A stretch of 64,000 bases of DNA, from assembly GCA_028343215.1 (NCBI GenBank), contig JAOLYB010000002.1, forward strand, positions 1 to 64,000, written 5' to 3'. The DNA is from Candidatus Nitrosopelagicus sp. (GTDB lineage Archaea; Thermoproteota; Nitrososphaeria; Nitrososphaerales; Nitrosopumilaceae). Position numbers and translations under genes: made by a program. Under the pieces are notes generated by a model. That model had not been told where the DNA came from, ran no database searches, and saw only the letters and a program-made list of their open reading frames with translations. Numbering within the stretch: position 1 is the stretch's first letter; each line of letters begins with the position of its first letter. Below, piece by piece: positions 3,648 through 22,617 of the stretch.

Positions 3648-3707
3648 TTTTTACCACCAGTTATCCAAATTAGCATTAGTTTTATACTCAGTTGTGGTCA
3701 AAACATT

Positions 3708-4649
3708 ATGCAAAATTTAGGACTTGGATTGATGATTCTTTCTATATCTCTCGCATTTACCGCAATTGGTACTGAAAGCGCATTTGCAGAAGAAATTAAA
3801 ATTGAAAACGCCCGTGGTTCATTTGAACAAGGTTGTGAAATCACAAATCTTTGTTTTGTTCCTTCTTATGCAACAGCCCGCGTAGGTGATACAATAATTT
3901 TCCTTAATGGTGATAGTGCAGCACACACTTCCACTAGTGGTACTCCTATGACCGGTCCTGATGGAGTTTGGGATAGTGGATTACAACAACCCGGAGTTGA
4001 TTTTGAATTAACACTTGATACCACTGGAACTTTTGATTATTTCTGTATGGTTCATCCATGGATGGCTGGCCAATTACAAATATTGCCTGAAGGTGCAAAT
4101 ATTGTTGACGATACCACATCTAACTACGGAACAACAGTTGATGAATTAGAATCAATAATTTATGGTGAAAATACTCCTGAAGTATCCGATAAAGATCCTG
4201 GAGTTATCAGCGAAGTATTTGCAAATATCGTTACAAATGATGGAACAAAAGATTCTCCATTGATAGTTGAGGTTGAATTTATGGAATCCGACGGATTCGT
4301 AATTAATCATGTAAACTATGATATCAAGATATCCCAAAACGGAGAAGTAATATTTGCTGAAGAAGATGCACATCGTCATTTGTTCAAATATCCTGTTCAC
4401 ACTACTGCACCATTGGAATATGATCCTAAAAATTATCCTGTAGATATTGATGTAACCTTTCAAGGAATTGGACACTTTATCGGTTCTTTGAATGAAGATG
4501 CAATACTTGGGGTTCATGGCCCTGTAGGCCAAACATCTACTTTCCAAGTAGTTCCTGAATTCGGCGTGGTTGCATCATTAGTACTTGTAATATCTATTGT
4601 AGCAGTAATTGGATTTTCTGCAAAAACAAGATTAATTCAAAAATTCTAA
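3708..4649 (+). CDS. Blue-copper (plastocyanin-like) protein with PEFG C-terminal sorting tail
   Basis: A 313-residue secreted cupredoxin. Signal peptide is about 1-27 (ending AFA-EE). The plastocyanin-type fold spans roughly 28-127, with type-1 copper ligands H73, C113, H116 and M119 in the pattern FCMVHPWM. A second beta domain (about 160-275) has a His-containing DAHRHLFKYP segment. The tail PEFG (283-286), a hydrophobic helix and a short basic end form a PEFG-CTERM sorting signal, known in Thaumarchaeota as an archaeosortase-type target. Such copper proteins replace cytochromes as electron carriers in ammonia oxidisers. The partner for this one is unknown. A TATA-like tttatactc lies about 25 bases before the ATG. 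Confidence 0.92.
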   Translation: MQNLGLGLMILSISLAFTAIGTESAFAEEIKIENARGSFEQGCEITNLCFVPSYATARVGDTIIFLNGDSAAHTSTSGTPMTGPDGVWDSGLQQPGVDFELTLDTTGTFDYFCMVHPWMAGQLQILPEGANIVDDTTSNYGTTVDELESIIYGENTPEVSDKDPGVISEVFANIVTNDGTKDSPLIVEVEFMESDGFVINHVNYDIKISQNGEVIFAEEDAHRHLFKYPVHTTAPLEYDPKNYPVDIDVTFQGIGHFIGSLNEDAILGVHGPVGQTSTFQVVPEFGVVASLVLVISIVAVIGFSAKTRLIQKF

Positions 4650-10065: not shown

Positions 10066-11382
10066 ATGCAGGAATTTGCAAATTCCCCATCATTAAGAAA
10101 TGGAATATTTGATTTACTTTCTTCTGTAAAACTTGCTACTGATGCAAATGTAAAATTATTAGATTATACAATACAATTATTCAAAAATAATGGACTATTC
10201 AGCGATTATTATGGATATCATAATGTTGATCATGAACTTGAAGTAACTTATGTCACTTTACTTTCTGGTATACATGCACTTGAAGATAATTACATATCTC
10301 GAAATGATTTGAATTATCTTTATGCATCTGCACTTTTACATGATTTTGATCCTGCCAAATCAATTGATAAACCTCATGAAAAAAATGTAATACAATTTAT
10401 CTCAAAAGATAAAACTATTCAAAAACTTCTTGCCGATGCCAAATTGGATCAAAATCTAATTTGTTCTATTATATCTAGAACTGTATATCCATGGACTGGA
10501 GATGTGATTACGAAAACTGAGAAATTCATCCAAAACTATTTCTTAAATTCTGAGATTAAAGATAACAAGGAACGACAAAAACACTTTAGAGATCTAGGTC
10601 ATTTCCTGTCCATTTCTGACCGTATTGGAGGCTATGCACTAGGTGATTTTCAAAAAGCAATGGAAATGGCAAAAATGAATGCTCATTCATCTAGTTGGCA
10701 TCCTGCATTTATTGTTAGACGTTCGGTTGTTTTCTTTGAAGATATGCTAAATAATGAACCTGATATGTGTCAACGAGTTCTAAACGGACTTCCAAAACAT
10801 ATGAGAAAAAACTTTCTAGATAATATAGTGGGGTTTATGAAACTCCGCCAAGAAGAAATTCAAATTTATAATCAATTTGTATATGATGGCTTACCTTTGG
10901 TTCCTTGCATACAGAAAAGTGCACTTTCAGATGATTCACTTGATGAACTTTTATCCATATATCGAGAATTACCAAAACCATTACAATTCACGAGAGATGA
11001 TTTTATTGAATCCGTCCGTGATCCTGACACGATTCTTAATATGCTTCGCATTGGAACTTCAACTGGTCAAATTATTGGATTTGCAAAAGGTGGGCCATTG
11101 GAAAAATATAATTTTGATGTAGAGTTTGAAGACCGAAATCGTGGTAAAAACAATACTGTTTTTCTTGAACCTGTTGCAATTAAAAATGGATATTGGGGAT
11201 TCCATGGAGGTAGGGAGCTTAGACAATTATTCATGATGCAGGTTCAGTCAAAAGGTTACAAATTCATGACTAGTTTTGCAATGCGTGATGTAATTGATGA
11301 AAGAAAAGAAAATGACAAAAATATTGTTTTTGTCAAAAAGTTTGATCCTGAACGATGGGATTATTTCAGAGTAACTCTATAG
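10066..11382 (+). CDS. HD-domain phosphohydrolase fused to a GNAT-like C-terminal domain
   Basis: A 438-residue soluble protein. The N-terminal half (1-270) is an HD domain: H52 and H56 in YHNVDHE, the H92-D93 pair in LLHDFDP, and a later D in FLSISDRIGGY. HD enzymes hydrolyse phosphate esters, often cyclic nucleotides, using one or two metals. Residues of about 295-438 look like an acetyltransferase fold, with a beta strand pair (IGFAKGGPLE, TVFLEPVAI), a loop GFHGGRELRQLF and a C-terminal strand. The GNAT assignment is tentative, because the acetyl-CoA loop is not classical. A weak TATA-like aacttaaaaa lies about 30 bases upstream. Confidence 0.75.
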   Translation: MQEFANSPSLRNGIFDLLSSVKLATDANVKLLDYTIQLFKNNGLFSDYYGYHNVDHELEVTYVTLLSGIHALEDNYISRNDLNYLYASALLHDFDPAKSIDKPHEKNVIQFISKDKTIQKLLADAKLDQNLICSIISRTVYPWTGDVITKTEKFIQNYFLNSEIKDNKERQKHFRDLGHFLSISDRIGGYALGDFQKAMEMAKMNAHSSSWHPAFIVRRSVVFFEDMLNNEPDMCQRVLNGLPKHMRKNFLDNIVGFMKLRQEEIQIYNQFVYDGLPLVPCIQKSALSDDSLDELLSIYRELPKPLQFTRDDFIESVRDPDTILNMLRIGTSTGQIIGFAKGGPLEKYNFDVEFEDRNRGKNNTVFLEPVAIKNGYWGFHGGRELRQLFMMQVQSKGYKFMTSFAMRDVIDERKENDKNIVFVKKFDPERWDYFRVTL

Positions 11383-11850: not shown

Positions 11851-12450
11851 CTAGTATCCGCCTTTAGCAAACTCATATTCTTTTTTGTTAAAGTCGAATT
11901 GTGTTACTAGTATTTCGCCCATCACATCAACAGCTGCTTGTACTACGTCTGGCTGAATTGAGAAGAACCCTTTGAATTTTCCAACTCCGTATTCTTCTGC
12001 TATCAATCCAATTGGACCGTCTGGTCCTTTTGTTACTACTGCCCAAACTGTTGCAAGTGGTGTTCCTATACAACTAAGTACTTGACAACTGTCTGGTACT
12101 TCTTGAGCTAGATGTGGATTGTTAAAATTCCCAATAACCCATGTTCTTGGGAGCTTTTTCATCAATTTGAGATATCTATCTTTAACAAATTCGTATCTTT
12201 TGTCTGTCTCAAATGATGCAAGTAGTGGGGCTGTATGTTTTGATGCATAGTTTTCAATCATTATGCTTAGTGCAAAAAGATCTGAACGGTCTGCTTTGAA
12301 GTTTAGATATCCACCATCTTGAAAGTCCTGGAAATTCCAGTTTACAAAAATCTCGTCACCTTGATCTTTGATTTCCTTTTTTTCAGGGAATCTTTCAAAG
12401 ACTGTGTCAATCAAACTATCGTTTGTTAAACCCATAAATCTGCTAGACAT
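11851..12450 (-). CDS. DICT-like sensory domain protein
   Basis: A 199-residue cytosolic protein. Residues 58-115 contain a pattern like the DICT sensory domain: LFALSIMIENYASKHTAPLL, SFETDKRYEFVKDRYLKLMK and PRTWVIGNF. DICT was named from diguanylate cyclases and two-component proteins and is thought to sense small ligands or light. A C-terminal alpha/beta part follows (GPIGLIAEEYGVGKFKGFFS). No output domain is fused, so signalling would need a partner. It lies 43 bases downstream of the B12-binding gene on the same strand. The intervening DNA holds two copies of the TAGTGG motif seen at other island promoters. Domain call is by eye. Confidence 0.6.
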   Translation of the reverse strand: MSSRFMGLTNDSLIDTVFERFPEKKEIKDQGDEIFVNWNFQDFQDGGYLNFKADRSDLFALSIMIENYASKHTAPLLASFETDKRYEFVKDRYLKLMKKLPRTWVIGNFNNPHLAQEVPDSCQVLSCIGTPLATVWAVVTKGPDGPIGLIAEEYGVGKFKGFFSIQPDVVQAAVDVMGEILVTQFDFNKKEYEFAKGGY

Positions 12451-12464
12451 ATAGAATATTTAAG

Positions 12465-12497
12465 CTAGTGGAAATTAGGTAAAATAGTGGTAATTAC
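12465..12497. promoter_or_regulatory. Two TAGTGG motif copies between B12 and DICT genes
   Basis: The copies ctagtggaaattagg (12465-12479) and atagtggtaattac (12484-12497) lie 19-20 bases apart, so on the same face of the helix. They match the motif repeated in front of the B12 gene and in the 16.7-kb intergenic region. The second copy runs into the 3' end of the B12-binding gene. A role as binding sites is inferred. Confidence 0.4.
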
Positions 12498-13345
12498 TTC
12501 TTTTTTATAATTCGGGGAATTTGTTCTAGTGCGTGAGCATCTGTAATCAGTTTTCCATCAAATTTGAAATTTGTTTTTTCTGAAAAGGCTAAACCTCCAA
12601 TGAATATTGGCAGTTTTTTGTACGCCTCGTGGATTTTCTTAACCATTCTTTGACCCGATCTAATATTATCTTCTAATGTGATGGATACGATTAATGCATC
12701 TGGTTTTGCAGTTTTAATGAATTCGATTAATGATTCTGCGGGAGTTGATGGCGAAAGGTTGAATGTTGTAAAACCTTTTGAAACTAAAAATGAATCTAAT
12801 ACATTACATCCTAAATTATGATCTTCGCCTACTGGTGTGGTCAACACAATTTTTCCTTTATCTTTTTTAGATTTTCTATTTTCATCAGCAATAACTTTGA
12901 CTAGGCTATGTGCGATGTTGCTTGCAACATGTTCTGTTGCAATTGATAGTTTACCTTCTGACCACAAGTATCCGATTTCAGCCATAACTGGTGTCATAAT
13001 TCTTTCGTAAAATTGGTCTAGTGTATTACCTGATACAAATGCTGTGTAAATGTCCATTGTGTCTTTTAGACTTCCTTCGGTAAGTGATGAAAATAATTTA
13101 GTTCTCAGTTGATCAATTAATTTTTCACGCTTTTCTCTATCTTTTGGCGTGTTTTGTAGTAAAAACGAATTGATTTTTGCATCTTCTCTAAATTCTACTG
13201 GAATGTCATCTCTTGTAACTGATGATGATTCTCCTAGGTATTTGATGGTCTCTTGTCTAGATGTCTTTCTTTCTTTATCCCATGTACTTTTTACTAAATA
13301 CAGATAATCTACTCCTTTTACCTTCTTTTTTCGAAGATATACCAT
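12494..13345 (-). CDS. Cobalamin-binding protein with CarH-type photoreceptor signature
   Basis: A 283-residue cytosolic protein. Residues 1-45 are a basic domain (YLYLVKSTWDKERKTSRQ, then TIKYLG) resembling N-termini of some transposases and other archaeal B12 proteins. Residues 70-155 are a four-helix cap with W128, nine residues, then E138-H139. This W-x9-EH pattern supplies the upper-face ligand for adenosylcobalamin in CarH/LitR light sensors. Residues 165-283 are the Rossmann B12 domain with E174-x-H176-x2-G179 (lower ligand H176) and G250-G251. CarH also has the ExHxxG form. A MerR DNA-binding head is absent. A light or B12 sensor role is therefore inferred, probably acting through a partner such as the adjacent winged-helix protein. 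Confidence 0.85.
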   Translation of the reverse strand: MVYLRKKKVKGVDYLYLVKSTWDKERKTSRQETIKYLGESSSVTRDDIPVEFREDAKINSFLLQNTPKDREKREKLIDQLRTKLFSSLTEGSLKDTMDIYTAFVSGNTLDQFYERIMTPVMAEIGYLWSEGKLSIATEHVASNIAHSLVKVIADENRKSKKDKGKIVLTTPVGEDHNLGCNVLDSFLVSKGFTTFNLSPSTPAESLIEFIKTAKPDALIVSITLEDNIRSGQRMVKKIHEAYKKLPIFIGGLAFSEKTNFKFDGKLITDAHALEQIPRIIKKK

Positions 13346-13360
13346 GCCCTATTTTAGGAA

Positions 13361-13390
13361 TAGTGCCTAATAAGTATAACTAGTGCTAAC
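13361..13390. promoter_or_regulatory. Promoter-overlapping tandem TAGTGC boxes of the B12-sensor gene
   Basis: TAGTGCCTAA (13361-13370) and TAGTGCTAAC (13381-13390) are direct repeats exactly 20 bases apart, two helical turns. They lie 16-45 bases before the B12-sensor ATG, around its probable TATA element (ttatact on the minus strand). A dimer bound here would block or recruit transcription factors, so autoregulation is plausible. Confidence 0.5.
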
Positions 13391-13434: not shown

Positions 13435-13710
13435 CTAATTTTGTATGCTTAATTCTTGTATAAGCTCATTAATTTTTGAATAATCTTTATGGAATTGTTT
13501 ACCTTTTTCGGTAACTTTGATCTGTTCATCACTATCGATAATTTCTTTATTTTTCATCTCTTGGAGATATTTTGTCAATTTATCATAGGATGTATTACAT
13601 TTGAATTGAATACGTGTAGGAGAAATACTGTCATTATCCATCTCTTCTTCAAAAATTGCAGAAATTATGTCGAAATATAGTTGAATACGTGTTCTTCTCT
13701 CCTTTGCCAT
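13435..13710 (-). CDS. Archaeal winged-helix transcription regulator (HTH_45 type)
   Basis: A 91-residue protein with the archaeal HTH_45-type layout. It has RTRIQLYFDIISAIFE, then a polar loop, a recognition-helix region (TRIQFKCNTSYDKLTKYLQE), a turn to a wing (GKQ in IKVTEKGKQF), and a C-terminal dimerisation helix. Such proteins bind promoter DNA as dimers. A TATA box (tttattaaag on the minus strand) lies about 26 bases before the ATG. It sits directly upstream of the B12-sensor gene on the same strand and is a natural candidate for the DNA-binding partner, though this is inference. Confidence 0.82.
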   Translation of the reverse strand: MAKERRTRIQLYFDIISAIFEEEMDNDSISPTRIQFKCNTSYDKLTKYLQEMKNKEIIDSDEQIKVTEKGKQFHKDYSKINELIQELSIQN

Positions 13711-13792: not shown

Positions 13793-14344
13793 CTAAGGAG
13801 TGGTAAATACTTCGGTACCTTTCTCTTCTGTCTGAAATATTATTGCTTTATGTGATTCTAACAGTTGATTTAGGAATCTATCCCTTAGATTTTGATTTAT
13901 TTGACTAACTTCGAATGAGCAGAGGAAATTACCATTAATTTTCTCAAAACCGTCATCTACACATTGTTCAATTTCAGCCATTCTGTCGGTTTTTTCTTCA
14001 GTGTTGAAGTCAAAATAATGGGTGGATATCACTCTAATTTTGGCCTCTTCAGGAAGTCCTTCAACCTTATCTAATATCATTTTAGAATAGTCTTCAAATG
14101 CCTCTGGTATTTCGACAATATGGAGGAGTTCGTTATTTTCTGTATTAATTCCAAATTCTTTCATCTCATCTAAAATTTTTTGAGGTTTTTGAGTCGTGTA
14201 AAAGCAATGTTGTTCGTTTTCTAGTCCTTTTTTGATAAAATTATACTCTGTTTGTTTTGTTTCATTATTGCCATCGTGAAATAGAACTATGTGAGTATGT
14301 TCTAATTCTTCTAAAAACTTATTTGCATTGATAGCCTCAGACAT
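13793..14344 (-). CDS. MEDS-like sensory domain protein
   Basis: A 183-residue cytosolic alpha/beta protein resembling the MEDS domain (first described in methanogen, methylotroph and DcmR sensors). Its landmarks are HIVLFHDGNNE near residue 13, FIKKGLENEQHCFYTT, IRVISTHYFDF and FLCSFEVSQI. MEDS proteins resemble the RecA/KaiC-like fold without a classical P-loop and usually sense hydrocarbon or chlorinated derivatives; the ligand here is unknown. A TATA element at 14367-14374 lies about 26 bases before the ATG at 14344, so that start is preferred over one seven codons upstream. A perfect palindrome at 14379-14394 adjoins the promoter. Confidence 0.72.
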   Translation of the reverse strand: MSEAINANKFLEELEHTHIVLFHDGNNETKQTEYNFIKKGLENEQHCFYTTQKPQKILDEMKEFGINTENNELLHIVEIPEAFEDYSKMILDKVEGLPEEAKIRVISTHYFDFNTEEKTDRMAEIEQCVDDGFEKINGNFLCSFEVSQINQNLRDRFLNQLLESHKAIIFQTEEKGTEVFTTP

Positions 14345-14378
14345 GAGGACATTTACCTCCCACATCTAATAAACCAAC

Positions 14379-14654: not shown

Positions 14655-16124
14655 TTATGTGAAATCTGTATTATAGACTGGTCTTGCTCCACTTGGAACT
14701 TCTGCTCCTGCAGATTCTTTGACCGATTCACCCCTTGCCTGGTAAACTCTGACTTTATGAAACACGTTGTGAGATGAAAATATTGCCAATCCTGCAAATG
14801 CAGCTCCTATGAAATTCCTTAATGTCACGTCGATACTTGGTTCTGCACCTATTACTGACATTTGGAATACAACGTAAAAGTTATCAAATAACCAAAACGC
14901 CAAAGTTACCCATGATAATAAACCTCCAATGAGATATCCTAGTCGTGCTTTTTGCCTTACAAATAAAATTGCAAAAATAATTGCAACATACCATATAGCT
15001 GAACCAAATAGCCATGAAATTTCCCAAACATCTGTTCTATCATCCATCCAGTAGTATGTGGAACCAATAATTGCCATGGCGCAAAGTGAAATCAAAAGTA
15101 ATTTCTGATTAACTTTGTATGATGTCTTTTCTTCAGGTAATTTTCCAATAGGTTTGAATGCTACTGCCTCATCTCTGGCTTCTTTGATTGCTTCGGTCAT
15201 ATGCTTGAGGTTTATTGGAACTAATTCATCAATGCTGTTGTCTTTAACATATGAATCATGTACCAAGCTATCTACTAATGGTCTTGCTAATGATGCTTTT
15301 ACCGGAGTCACTAAATCAATCCAGTATGATGAAAGTCTTGGAGTCAAAAATGGTATCTGTATGATGTTAAGATTTCTATTAATTATTGAGGAGTACAATC
15401 TCATCATCTGTTCGTATGTCATTTTATCTGGTCCTCCTATCTCCAATGTTTTTCCTGCAGTCATTGGATTTTTCATTACACCAACCAAATAATCTACAAC
15501 ATTATCTACTGCGATTGGTTGTGTTGTTGATTTAACCCATTTTGGACATACCATTAGTGGCAATCTTTCGACAAGATATCTAAGCATTGCATATGAGCCA
15601 CCTTCTGCTCCTACTATCACTGATGCTCTTAATTCTGTCACAGGAATATTGCCTGATGCTAAAATTTTACCAACTTCGTGCCTGCTTCTCATATGCTTTG
15701 ATAATTCTAAACTCTCGTTAACTAAACCACCTAGGTAAATTATTCTTTTCACCCCTGCATTTTCAGCTGCTTTAAGAAAATTCTGGGCCTGTAATTTTTC
15801 TCTATCTGCAAATTTCTCCCATTCTTTTTTTGAACCCTCCATTGAATGTAGGAGATAAAATGCTGTTTCAATTCCCTTTAGTGCTTTATTTAATGAATTC
15901 ATTTCAAATGCATCGGCTGCAACAAATCTGATATTTTCTTCATCAGGGTATTTTGATCTAGACATTGCAGTAACTTTGTAACCTGTTTTGGCTAATCTCT
16001 CGAGTAATTTTTTTCCGATGAAACCCGTTGCACCTGTTACTAGAATTGAATAATCTTTTGTGTCTGCATTTTCTTTTAATGCTGCCATTTTCTCTAATCT
16101 GCTTGAACTAGCCAGTTGACTCAT
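14655..16124 (-). CDS. NAD(P)-binding SDR-type protein with a C-terminal membrane domain
   Basis: A 489-residue protein. The atypical short-chain dehydrogenase/epimerase domain (about 25-310) opens with VTGATGFIGKKLLERL, the GxxGxxG dinucleotide motif, and ends in the substrate region DSYVKDNSIDELVP. The YxxxK catalytic pair is not obvious, as in redox-sensing NmrA or NDUFA9-like relatives. Residues 340-465 contain four membrane helices. The combination suggests membrane-bound NAD(P)H-dependent chemistry or sensing, possibly on a lipid or quinone. It is the last gene of a three-gene minus-strand operon starting at 16693, with 5 bases to the gene above, and so shares its motif-bearing promoter. 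Confidence 0.85.
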   Translation of the reverse strand: MSQLASSSRLEKMAALKENADTKDYSILVTGATGFIGKKLLERLAKTGYKVTAMSRSKYPDEENIRFVAADAFEMNSLNKALKGIETAFYLLHSMEGSKKEWEKFADREKLQAQNFLKAAENAGVKRIIYLGGLVNESLELSKHMRSRHEVGKILASGNIPVTELRASVIVGAEGGSYAMLRYLVERLPLMVCPKWVKSTTQPIAVDNVVDYLVGVMKNPMTAGKTLEIGGPDKMTYEQMMRLYSSIINRNLNIIQIPFLTPRLSSYWIDLVTPVKASLARPLVDSLVHDSYVKDNSIDELVPINLKHMTEAIKEARDEAVAFKPIGKLPEEKTSYKVNQKLLLISLCAMAIIGSTYYWMDDRTDVWEISWLFGSAIWYVAIIFAILFVRQKARLGYLIGGLLSWVTLAFWLFDNFYVVFQMSVIGAEPSIDVTLRNFIGAAFAGLAIFSSHNVFHKVRVYQARGESVKESAGAEVPSGARPVYNTDFT

Positions 16125-16128
16125 TTTA

Positions 16129-16488
16129 TCACTCCTTGTCTAATTTACGAAGTTCTTTGAGGTCTACAATCTCTATGTCTTTACTCAATGTAACTAAAGA
16201 TGATAATTTTGGTTTAGCATTTTTGCCCATTTTAAGGACTAGTTTATTTTTATGTAATATCTCAAGTGTAACATTTTCCTTTTTTAGGATTTTACCAATA
16301 TGCTTAGCCTCGGTAAGTTGTTTTAGAAGGCTCATTTTTCCAGGAATTTTTGTAGGAAGATGTGCGATGTTTATTCTTCTTATATCTCCTTTTGAGGAAA
16401 ATTCGATGGCTGTGCCATCTTTATCACTGATGGATAAATCTCCGCTACGGAGGTAAAGTAAAAAATTGGCAGGAAGGTCGCTTTTCAT
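16129..16488 (-). CDS. Hypothetical protein in the NAD(P)-binding operon
   Basis: A 119-residue soluble alpha/beta protein. The first 45 residues form beta hairpins (FLLYLRSGDLSISDKDG, IRRINIAHLP). A basic helical middle part follows (LLKQLTEAKHIGKILKK), then a hydrophobic strand region (NVTLEILHKNKLVLKMG). It lies 17 bases below a 62-residue gene and 5 bases above the SDR-membrane gene, so it is almost certainly co-translated with them. The family is not recognised. A lipid- or membrane-associated accessory role is only a guess from context. Confidence 0.72.
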   Translation of the reverse strand: MKSDLPANFLLYLRSGDLSISDKDGTAIEFSSKGDIRRINIAHLPTKIPGKMSLLKQLTEAKHIGKILKKENVTLEILHKNKLVLKMGKNAKPKLSSLVTLSKDIEIVDLKELRKLDKE

Positions 16489-16504: not shown

Positions 16505-16693
16505 TTAGGTTTTTGTTGTGATAGTCAATCCGCCTGTTAGCACAACTGTTCCGGTTGAAACTTTTTTACCATTTCTGTCTACCATTCCGCTAAGTTCTAA
16601 CTTATCGAATTTGTATGAAATGGCTGCGTGCTTTGCAGTTAGTTTATCAAAAACTTCTGCCAGGAGACTTGCCCATTCTTGTTCTTCTGTCAT
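16505..16693 (-). CDS. Small hypothetical protein, first gene of the NAD(P)-binding operon
   Basis: A 62-residue protein: an amphipathic helix (EQEWASLLAEVFDKLTAK) followed by a beta-rich part ending GTVVLTGGLTITTKT. A TATA-like tttaatatca on the minus strand (16713-16721) is about 26 bases before the ATG, so it starts the operon. The box TAGTGCCCTA is immediately upstream. The Thr/Val-rich plus-strand frame opposite is a shadow. No known family. Confidence 0.7.
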   Translation of the reverse strand: MTEEQEWASLLAEVFDKLTAKHAAISYKFDKLELSGMVDRNGKKVSTGTVVLTGGLTITTKT

Positions 16694-16725
16694 AATGGAC
16701 TTAGAAATGTAATGATATTAAAGCC

Positions 16726-16815
16726 TAGTGCCCTATGGTGAGTCTAGTGCCTAATATTTACCACTAGAAATGAAATAATGATAATACTTACCACTATACA
16801 TACCCTAGTGCATAA
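16726..16815. promoter_or_regulatory. Array of five TAGTG(C/G) boxes in a divergent promoter region
   Basis: Between the divergent operons at 16693 and 16849 there are three forward boxes: TAGTGCCCTA 16726-16735, TAGTGCCTAA 16745-16754 and TAGTGCATAA 16806-16815. Two reverse boxes read TTACCACTAG (16758-16767) and TTACCACTAT (16788-16797). The outer two boxes abut the two TATA elements on their upstream sides, the place where archaeal regulators help or block TFB. This is the densest copy of the island motif. Confidence 0.6.
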
Positions 16816-16848: not shown

Positions 16849-17430
16849 ATGAGCACTACACAATCACTTCCAAGTAAGATCGCATTGATGAAGGGCGGAA
16901 TCGGAGCAGGCCTAATGGGTGGCTTTGCATTATTCTCATCATTCTTTGCAATCGATCAAATGTTAGATATCCCACCAGGAACATTCTACAAAACTATCGG
17001 TATTACAATGGGCGTAGATGAAGGATTAGCAATCGCAATGGGCTTTATGGCTCACATGGGCGTTGCAGCATTGATTGGGGCTATGTACTTTTTGGCTTCA
17101 AACATTTGGAGATTCTTCAGATTGGTAACCGTCCCAAAAGCAATAATTACTGGTGTTTGGACTGGGCTAATTGTTTTCACAATAGCATTCTTGCCAATTC
17201 ACATGTTCGTAATGACTCCAATGATGGAGGTAGAATTGATAATTACTGACGTATCTCAATTTGACTTGGATCAACAACAAGCATTAGCAACTTTGTTGTA
17301 TGAAAGCGACAAAATTTACATAAATGCATTGATTCTTCATGTAATATATGGAGGAATCGCAGGATTCATCGGAGGTTGCATAATGCATGACGACTACAAA
17401 GGAGTGAAAAGGATTGCCGGATTCTGGTAA
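16849..17430 (+). CDS. Four-helix membrane protein, unknown, probably highly expressed
   Basis: A 193-residue integral membrane protein with about four helices (residues 13-38, 58-85, 95-125, 160-185). Small residues are abundant (GGIGAGLMGGFALFSSFF, GGIAGFIGGCIMH), and His residues are found in loops (AHMGV, PIHMF, LHVIYG). A TATA element (cataaatac) about 27 bases upstream gives a leaderless start. Codon choice is richer in GC-ending codons than in neighbours, a sign of strong expression. The family is not recognised. Placement next to the five-box regulatory region suggests that it responds to the same signal as the divergent operon. Confidence 0.8.
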   Translation: MSTTQSLPSKIALMKGGIGAGLMGGFALFSSFFAIDQMLDIPPGTFYKTIGITMGVDEGLAIAMGFMAHMGVAALIGAMYFLASNIWRFFRLVTVPKAIITGVWTGLIVFTIAFLPIHMFVMTPMMEVELIITDVSQFDLDQQQALATLLYESDKIYINALILHVIYGGIAGFIGGCIMHDDYKGVKRIAGFW

Positions 17431-17785
17431 CGATAACGAGAGAAGTCAAAAACTCGAAGGCATGTATAATGCTTTCATGGTAGACGTCTCAAAGTTATTT
17501 CCAAAGACCGATTCAAACCTACTACTCAGTGTAATGGCTTTGGAAAGAAAATTCCCCGATATGATGCCACATGTGCATCTAGAGGTAATCTTCCCAAAGG
17601 GTACAAACGTCGATTTGCCAAAATACGAGATTACTGAAAAGTATCACGTTCAAGCAGCAACTCACCGTTGGGACAAGAATATACTTGTTGTAACTGGAAT
17701 GATGAATGTAAATACTATTGCAGAGATTGCAGACCATAAAACTGTGGAAAAGATAACCGGCACAGCCAACGCAGCCTTTTACTAA
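17414..17785 (+). CDS. Hypothetical soluble protein coupled to the membrane protein
   Basis: A frame of 123 codons with a TTG start overlapping the upstream stop by 17 bases. The ATG at 17462 (MYNAFMVDVSKLF) is an alternative giving 107 residues. The protein is alpha/beta with a conserved-looking core HVHLEVIFPKGTN, YEITEKYHVQAATHRW and ENI-type strand NILVVTGMMNV. Like the preceding gene it has GC-ending codon bias suggesting good expression. No family is recognised. The overlap implies translational coupling and perhaps a complex with the membrane protein. Confidence 0.75.
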   Translation: MPDSGNDNERSQKLEGMYNAFMVDVSKLFPKTDSNLLLSVMALERKFPDMMPHVHLEVIFPKGTNVDLPKYEITEKYHVQAATHRWDKNILVVTGMMNVNTIAEIADHKTVEKITGTANAAFY

Positions 17786-21408: not shown

Positions 21409-21966
21409 ATGAAACTTGTAATTGGAATCACTGGAAGTACCGGAGTAATCTATGGTATTCGTTTACTAGAGGTTCTAAAAGAAAAAGGAATTGAAACAAA
21501 TCTTGTAATGTCTGAATGGGCAAAAAAATGTGTTCCAATGGAGACGAAACATGACATCGCATATGTCGAATCTCTTGCTACTGAGGTTACTGATGAAAAA
21601 AATATGGCTGCAAATGTTTCAAGTGGAACTCACAAAACTGATGGAATGGTTGTTATTCCTTGCACCATGAAAACATTATCAAGTGTTGCAAATGGTTATG
21701 ATGAAACTCTAGTTGCACGTGCAGCCGGGGTGACCATGAAAGAAGCTAGAAAATTAATTCTAGTTGCAAGAGAAACTCCTCTAACTGCTATAAACCTTGA
21801 AAATATGTTAAAACTAGCTAGACTTGGAGTTGTAATTTTACCTCCTGTTACTGAATTTTATACAAATCCTACATCAATTGATGCAATGATTGACCACATT
21901 GTTGGAAAATGTCTTGATCAATTTGACATTGACCATGATTTGTTTACCCGTTGGGGTAGTAAATAG
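21409..21966 (+). CDS. ubiX: UbiX-type flavin prenyltransferase
   Basis: A 185-residue flavoprotein of the UbiX/Pad1 family. It joins dimethylallyl phosphate to FMN to make the prenylated flavin cofactor of UbiD-type decarboxylases. Landmarks: the N-terminal phosphate loop GITGSTGVIYGIRLLEVL, VIPCTMKTLSSVANG near 83-97, and VARETPLTAINLENMLKL, followed by a C-terminal hydrophobic strand with TP-type binding residues. Length is typical. A TATA-like ttatatttt lies about 26 bases before the ATG. The partner ubiD gene is not in this window; it could serve quinone or aromatic metabolism. Confidence 0.95.
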   Translation: MKLVIGITGSTGVIYGIRLLEVLKEKGIETNLVMSEWAKKCVPMETKHDIAYVESLATEVTDEKNMAANVSSGTHKTDGMVVIPCTMKTLSSVANGYDETLVARAAGVTMKEARKLILVARETPLTAINLENMLKLARLGVVILPPVTEFYTNPTSIDAMIDHIVGKCLDQFDIDHDLFTRWGSK

Positions 21967-22003
21967 CCCAAAAAAATTTACACTAGTTTTATTTTGAGAA
22001 TTC

Positions 22004-22423
22004 ATGTTAAAGATATATTTTGAACAAGAAATTAACGCGGATATTGAAAAGGCGTTTGATATAATTACAAATTTTGAGAATTTCCAAAAATTATTTCCCG
22101 AATTCTATCCTTCAATTTTAATAAAATCTGTACGAGATGAAAGCTCACTTGTAGCCGAACATCTTAAACTTCATGATACTGAATTTATCATAATGTCTAA
22201 ACATTTCACATCAAAACCCCATTCACACGAAATGCGCGTTATTGGGGGGGACATCAAAGGAAGTAATATTAATGAAATTTTTAGTTTTGATAATGGTAAA
22301 ACCGTACTCAAAGTCAATGCTGAATTGGATGTGAAATCATCTAGATTCTCTAAGAAAAATCCGTATGAAGAATCTTTGAAAAGTTTGTATGATGTGATGA
22401 TAAAGGAAATTGAAAAGTCTTAG
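22004..22423 (+). CDS. SRPBCC-family protein (COQ10/START-like)
   Basis: A 139-residue protein with the Coq10/START pattern. FEQEINADIEKAFDIITNFE leads into helix and strands, and a final long helix PYEESLKSLYDVMIKEIEK closes the cavity. Such proteins bind isoprenoid quinones or other lipids. Being next to ubiX raises the possibility of a quinone link, but this is inference. A run of seven G at 22245 is intact in frame. The TATA element (gttttattttg) is about 22 bases upstream. The 3' end overlaps tatA convergently by 4 bases. Confidence 0.78.
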   Translation: MLKIYFEQEINADIEKAFDIITNFENFQKLFPEFYPSILIKSVRDESSLVAEHLKLHDTEFIIMSKHFTSKPHSHEMRVIGGDIKGSNINEIFSFDNGKTVLKVNAELDVKSSRFSKKNPYEESLKSLYDVMIKEIEKS

Positions 22424-22617
22424 TCTTTACTTTCTTTGATGTCTTTTAGTTCTTTGTCTGCTTCAATTTCTCCTTTCTTATATTCCCCTTTTGCTTTACC
22501 AAATGTTTTTGCTAGTTCTGGAATTTTCTTTGCTCCAAATAGTAAAACACCTGCAGCGACAATTACAATTATCCATTCACTTCCTCCGGGTATGAAATTG
22601 AATAGGCTCTCAATCAT
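22420..22617 (-). CDS. tatA: TatA/TatE twin-arginine translocase subunit
   Basis: A 65-residue protein. A membrane helix (about 13-29) is followed by the hinge motif FGAKKIPELAKTFGKAKGEY, the amphipathic helix that defines TatA, then an acidic tail. TatA polymerises to form the pore through which folded Tat substrates cross the membrane. The tatC gene lies about 1.3 kb away on the same strand, with a nuclease-like gene between. No TatB is evident, as expected in archaea. Confidence 0.93.
   Translation of the reverse strand: MIESLFNFIPGGSEWIIVIVAAGVLLFGAKKIPELAKTFGKAKGEYKKGEIEADKELKDIKESKD

Follow-up and report, generated by a model that had tools for sequence, protein, structure and literature searches.

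The closest described systems are the class I, MerR-type CarH/LitR photoreceptors of Thermus and Myxococcus. In CarH, the adenosylcobalamin (AdoCbl)-bound and apo forms differ even in the absence of light. The published light signature of cobalamin domains consists of GxxW, EH, GxxH, and GxxxP, and in the set of light-responsive domains defined by SignatureFinder some bacterial members are fused to MEDS or DICT domains; the main text of that work makes no mention of archaea (PMC11796333). In Thermus CarH (TtCarH), H132 becomes the second histidine ligand after light (the bis-His state), whereas CtMerR and the photocobilins lack this residue (PMC11796333). The classic B12 motif is D/ExHx2G/P (PMC9304148), and TudS-DUF1722 (RudS) genes belong to LitR/photolyase light operons (PMC11417400). 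A literature search that covered few subscription journals yielded no previous description of a B12 photoreceptor from ammonia-oxidizing archaea, nor was a photoreceptor-controlled regulon in these organisms found in the literature searched.

The window, the whole 64,000-nucleotide stretch analyzed here and part of the 1.06-Mb draft genome of a Nitrosopelagicus-type ammonia-oxidizing archaeon, encodes a 283 amino acid CarH-like cobalamin-domain protein (12494-13345, minus strand); the ORF is genuine and is kept at full length in relatives. A head (residues 1-66) is followed by a four-helix cap (approximately residues 70-157) containing W128, E138, and H139, and by a Rossmann B12 domain (residues 164-260) containing H176; Pfam places B12-binding_2 at 82-151 and B12-binding at 164-255, both above cut-off. 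The initial annotation had picked out W128-x9-E138-H139 and E174-x-H176-x-x-G179, and both are present exactly as claimed, the former as part of G125xxW128-x9-E138H139 and the latter as part of E174xH176xxG179-x41-S221xT223-x26-G250G251, which fits D/ExHx2G-x41-SxT-x22-27-GG. It had also taken both features as marks of CarH-type light sensors rather than of methyltransferases. This holds for W-x9-EH, which is absent from MetH and corrinoid proteins encoded alongside it in the same genomes, but ExHxxG by itself is not diagnostic, because the classic motif allows either D or E and because three orthologues with an intact W-x9-EH have D instead of E. Among NCBIfam models, CarH ranked first (8e-17), above corrinoid proteins and MetH, with a score of 61.4 bits against the 400-bit cut-off of the CarH equivalog. 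In common with the SignatureFinder set, the protein has GxxW (G125-W128), EH (E138-H139), and GxxH (G173-H176), whereas the GxxxP of that set is here S198xxxP202; among relatives, the G is found in 11/46 and the P in 44/46. The position of TtCarH H132 is occupied by S129 and is variable among the 46 relatives, and the product of a light reaction must therefore differ from the bis-His state of TtCarH.

A CarH-like gene is present in approximately 54 of the 151 genomes nearest to that of the window (from the match table, with MetH-type matches left out). In 46 aligned relatives from several families, W128, E138, and H139 are each retained in 44, H176 in 45, and E174 in 42, and an independent scan of named genomes found GxxW-x9-EH at 80/80 loci, drawn from Nitrosopelagicus, Nitrosopumilus, Nitrosarchaeum, Nitrosotenuis, and Nitrososphaeraceae. 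The conservation expected by the initial annotation is thus borne out, and a search for orthologues lacking W-x9-EH yielded none except two divergent, head-bearing paralogues (L058 4797-6045 and L063 5923-6789), both of which have lost the W, E, and H and occur in genomes that also have a normal copy. These two recall CarA or class II LitR; the L058 paralogue adjoins HTH_45, MEDS, and RudS genes, together with a gene for a 101 amino acid protein that resembles the helical cap only, and the L063 paralogue adjoins a PF04244 photolyase. In MetH and the corrinoid proteins encoded by these genomes, the motif is DxHxxG and W-x9-EH is missing, which excludes chance as the source of the signature.

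An AlphaFold2 model built from the 46 sequences has a mean pLDDT of 89.5, and its 50 best PDB matches (Foldseek) are all to light-responsive proteins, namely photocobilin, TtCarH, and CtMerR, with TM-scores to the target of at most 0.86; the comparison with CarH structures proposed in the initial annotation therefore came out in its favor. An hhalign comparison with Thermus CarH gave a probability of 98.8. The genome itself encodes both corrinoid adenosyltransferase families, and AdoCbl should therefore be available to the protein.

The head (13146-13345, minus strand) is the proposed DNA-binding part. No MerR domain is found in the window protein by Pfam, whereas Thermus CarH, used as a comparison, gives MerR_1 at 1.9e-19; in its place, as had been noted earlier, stands a basic and nearly invariant segment in which R5, K7, Y14, V18, W22, Q31, Y36, L37, G38, and P49 are invariant. 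It is modeled at pLDDT 90 as three beta strands and a helix. By sequence it matched nothing in Pfam or the PDB, and by fold it gave no PDB match below E=0.26, with only weak PC4-like matches and no significant known DNA-binding domain; an arm-type integrase fold was likewise unsupported by this comparison. No copy of the module was found in viral contigs. The same module, a homologous small head with a Y-x-Y-L-V / K-Y-L-G pattern, forms the N-terminal part of Fic proteins and of IS1634-like transposase fragments in other archaea of the phylum; there it is fused to transposase or Fic domains, whereas the window head is fused to a B12 domain. Examples, comprising Fic fusions and remnants of IS1634-like transposases, are found at L199 3227-4114, L203 2218-3129, L200, and L204.

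A candidate operator is present as a paired direct repeat, TTAGCACTAG-N9-TTAGCACTAG (also written TTAGCACTAG-N9-TTAGCATTAG), upstream of the CarH-like gene at 76/80 loci, and is kept across three families. In the window, the copy before the CarH-like gene (TTAGCACTAG..TTAGGCACTAT, 13360-13389, minus strand) scores 27.5 bits against a matrix built from the repeats of those 76 loci, and a TATA-like TTATACTTA lies between its two repeats. A second copy (TTACCACTAT-N9-TTTCCACTAG, 12465-12493, minus strand, 21.0 bits) is located just upstream of TTAAATA and before the gene for a DICT-like protein. A third (TTACCACCAG-N9-TTAGCATTAG, 3651-3679, plus strand, 26.2 bits), conserved in the genus, precedes by about 29 bp the gene for a 313 amino acid plastocyanin/azurin-type copper protein (cupredoxin; 3708-4649, plus strand), a predicted regulon member. 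A weaker copy, also conserved in the genus (TAGGCACTAG-N9-AGGGCACTAG, 16725-16753, minus strand, 18.4 bits), stands before an ORF of 62 amino acids that leads the SDR genes. Across the 886 kb of loci, 257 matrix matches of at least 18 bits were found, compared with 4 in 3 Mb of random sequence. For the SDR, secreted protein, amine oxidase, and DICT-like genes, matches are found some 30 bp upstream of the start codon, with a TATA box directly downstream of the match, and the second repeat reaches the BRE/TATA region.

Genome-wide counts come from pattern searches, which miss variants (the looser pattern fits three of the four window sites and the stricter one of four). On this basis, the whole draft genome has only three copies, all in the window (before the sensor, DICT-like, and cupredoxin genes); the same pattern read backwards gave none in this genome and one in the eight genomes of the genus taken together. 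The complete genome of another member of the genus (G025) shares these three copies and has a further doubtful one; in 12 other genomes, the island around the CarH-like gene contains most of the copies with good agreement to the matrix, and the backwards pattern has no match. Copies unlinked to the island precede the photolyase genes of G051 and G067, the gene for a Dps-like ferritin of G086, and a DICT-like gene of G090. A further unlinked operator of 36.9 bits (L215 139-167; G067:C3:39238-39265) has no clear ORF of at least 60 amino acids within 260 bp. In the related genome G059, which has no CarH-like gene, no match of at least 20 bits was found in the 1.54 of 1.78 Mb scanned, and the photolyase/DUF1722 regions of three genomes without the gene had no operator matches. 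The genome of the window also has photolyase genes of the PF04244 and PF03441 types, approximately 6 kb apart (G000:C3:15484-16149 and 21923-22486; L210). The two own-genus photolyase genes had no operator at 14 bits or above (L210 and L211, with the upstream side of PF04244 partly covered in L210).

The initial annotation had described the neighbors of the sensor gene as winged-helix, DICT-like, and MEDS-like. The MEDS-domain protein (190 amino acids; 13793-14365, minus strand) exceeds the Pfam cut-off and has a counterpart beside the L058 paralogue, and the winged-helix assignment (HTH_45/Sso10a-like, 91 amino acids; 13435-13710, minus strand) also stood, whereas the DICT similarity of the 199 amino acid protein (11851-12450, minus strand) is weak for the window protein itself (E=0.078) and better in an orthologue (E=3e-4); orthologues of this gene adjoin photolyase genes or have the operator elsewhere. 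Beyond it, on the opposite strand, a 438 amino acid protein (10066-11382) has weak HD and GNAT similarity. Further along are an NmrA/NAD(P)-binding SDR with a membrane C-terminus (14655-16124, minus strand), a 119 amino acid protein transcribed in the same direction (16129-16488, minus strand), homologues of which occur in photolyase/CarH islands of relatives, and the conserved 62 amino acid protein behind the operator (16505-16693, minus strand), whose G090 homologue likewise follows an operator. On the plus strand are genes for a 193 amino acid membrane protein (16849-17430), homologous to proteins encoded in L111 and in the RudS/photolyase island of G067, and for a protein of about 120 residues (17414-17785), whose G067 and G090 homologues directly follow an operator-like repeat.

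Over the 80 loci, the commonest neighbor of the CarH-like gene is the NmrA-type SDR (66, usually divergent), followed by a secreted repeat protein (52), DUF1722/RudS (50), an amine-oxidase-family flavoprotein (44), SRPBCC (42), a TFB paralogue (40), the DICT-like protein (22), photolyase (14), and HTH_45 (9). The secreted protein (e.g., L036 3055-3954) contains repeated WVKNNAGWWADG segments and has no Pfam match, and an operator lies close before its start in 48 loci, usually at about 31 bp. A spaced variant of the operator is found at some copies of the TFB paralogue (e.g., L079 9237-10226), and some Nitrosopumilus islands include an NreA DNA-repair gene and a BtuF/FepB-like gene (L115 2016-4194; L128 1808-3985). 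A CarH-like gene is present in 18/19 genomes with a photolyase, within 9 kb in seven of them; the co-occurrence is significant by Fisher's test (p=1.5e-8; within family, p=1.8e-5), p values that ignore shared descent. DUF1722 lies within 5 kb of the CarH-like gene in 14/14 genomes that have both. In Thermus, carH itself lies together with phr, crtI, and an SDR gene whose product is a homologue of the window SDR.

Three independent lines, namely the residues and fold, the gene neighborhood, and an operator-like sequence shared by the island promoters and unlinked photolyase genes, support the interpretation of a B12 photoreceptor domain of the CarH type that has no MerR head. We put at roughly 75% the probability that the protein is an AdoCbl-binding photoreceptor and transcription regulator of a light/oxidative-stress regulon, working like CarH/LitR. 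In the dark, AdoCbl would be held between the cap (W128, E138, and H139) and the Rossmann domain, with H176 as the lower ligand, and would drive oligomerization; through its beta-sheet heads, the oligomer would bind the TTAGCACTAG-N9-TTAGCACTAG repeats, which adjoin the TATA box or lie on both sides of it, keeping TBP/TFB off. Green or blue light would break the Co-C bond, loosen the oligomer, and release the regulon, which is predicted to comprise the sensor gene itself, the SDR operon, and the DICT-like protein and cupredoxin genes here, and, in relatives, genes such as those for photolyase, amine oxidase, and a Dps-like ferritin. Because binding predicted at the BRE/TATA should block TBP/TFB, we favor repression in the dark that light relieves, as in CarH, although an activator is possible. 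Several observations weigh against the reading as a photoreceptor and regulator: S129 at the position of H132, SxxxP in place of GxxxP, a head whose fold matches no known DNA-binding domain significantly, and photolyase genes of the genus at which no operator was detected. The wider proposal, that several families of ammonia-oxidizing archaea have a light/photo-oxidative-stress regulon governed by a B12 photoreceptor with a non-MerR head shared with transposases and a new TATA-box operator, we regard as reasonably probable.

Three other explanations of the protein were weighed. Its Pfam domains are shared with corrinoid methyl-transfer proteins of the MetH/MtaC/MtbC kind, and NCBIfam gives weak matches to MtgC, MtbC, and MetH. 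However, the motif is ExH and not DxH and is accompanied by the W-x9-EH cap, the best-ranked structures are light-responsive cobalamin domains, the tree sets the protein apart from MetH and the corrinoid proteins, which group together at 100/100 (the position of TtCarH in that tree is unsure owing to its long branch), and no methyltransferase gene is found among the neighbors at the 80 loci. A methyl-transfer function is thus very improbable and was rejected. Alternatively, AdoCbl occupancy rather than light could set DNA binding, so that the regulon answers to cobalamin supply. The dark difference between AdoCbl-bound and apo CarH is in keeping with this, as is the gene for a BtuF/FepB-type periplasmic binding protein in some Nitrosopumilus islands. 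It is nevertheless quite unlikely, as the predicted regulon consists of photolyase, RudS/DUF1722, Dps-like, amine oxidase, and SDR genes, no genes for B12 synthesis or B12-dependent enzymes were seen in it, co-occurrence with photolyase is strong, and the genome has its own adenosyltransferases.

Doubt about the head leads to a further alternative, in which another regulator of the island (HTH_45, the TFB paralogue, or an HVO_A0261-type HTH) binds the operator and the role of the CarH-like protein is limited to modulating it, much as class II LitR and CarA work together with partners. The head has no proven DNA-binding fold, and TFB and HTH_45 genes are present at 40/80 and 9/80 loci, respectively; yet the repeat precedes the CarH-like gene at 76/80 loci and in three families where the other regulators are mostly absent, and the nearly invariant head has relatives at the N-termini of transposases. 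This alternative we consider unlikely, and direct operator binding by the CarH-like protein remains our preferred reading.

Ammonia-oxidizing archaea are abundant nitrifiers, and their sensitivity to sunlight is a long-standing question of the nitrogen cycle. Those of both sea and soil appear to carry a B12-based light sensor controlling DNA-repair and stress genes; given a candidate sensor together with a set of target genes and a precisely defined DNA sequence, their response to sunlight becomes testable. The head would be a new output for B12 photoreceptors, of a kind not seen in known B12 light sensors, and is relevant to gene regulation in archaea as well as to green-light optogenetics.

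In sequence profile and fold, the nearest known proteins are the cobalamin domain of CtMerR and the photocobilins (8JBS/8JBT, 8J2W/8J2X), which, like the window protein, lack an equivalent of H132; their output, unlike that of the window protein, is a MerR or bilin-binding globin domain. The MEDS and DICT domains, fused to the cobalamin domain in the SignatureFinder set, are encoded here by separate adjoining genes. No carotenoid synthesis cluster was identified near the CarH-like gene, apart from the amine-oxidase/CrtI-like flavoprotein. The likeness to CarH/LitR extends from the W-x9-EH cap, the B12 motif with its lower histidine, and the fold to a locus with photolyase, a CrtI-type oxidoreductase, and an SDR, and to predicted autoregulation. 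The window protein differs in having no MerR head, a different operator, no histidine after the tryptophan, and an archaeal promoter context. Because the MerR head is absent, it is not by definition a member of CarH/LitR, though it would be CarH-like in its action.
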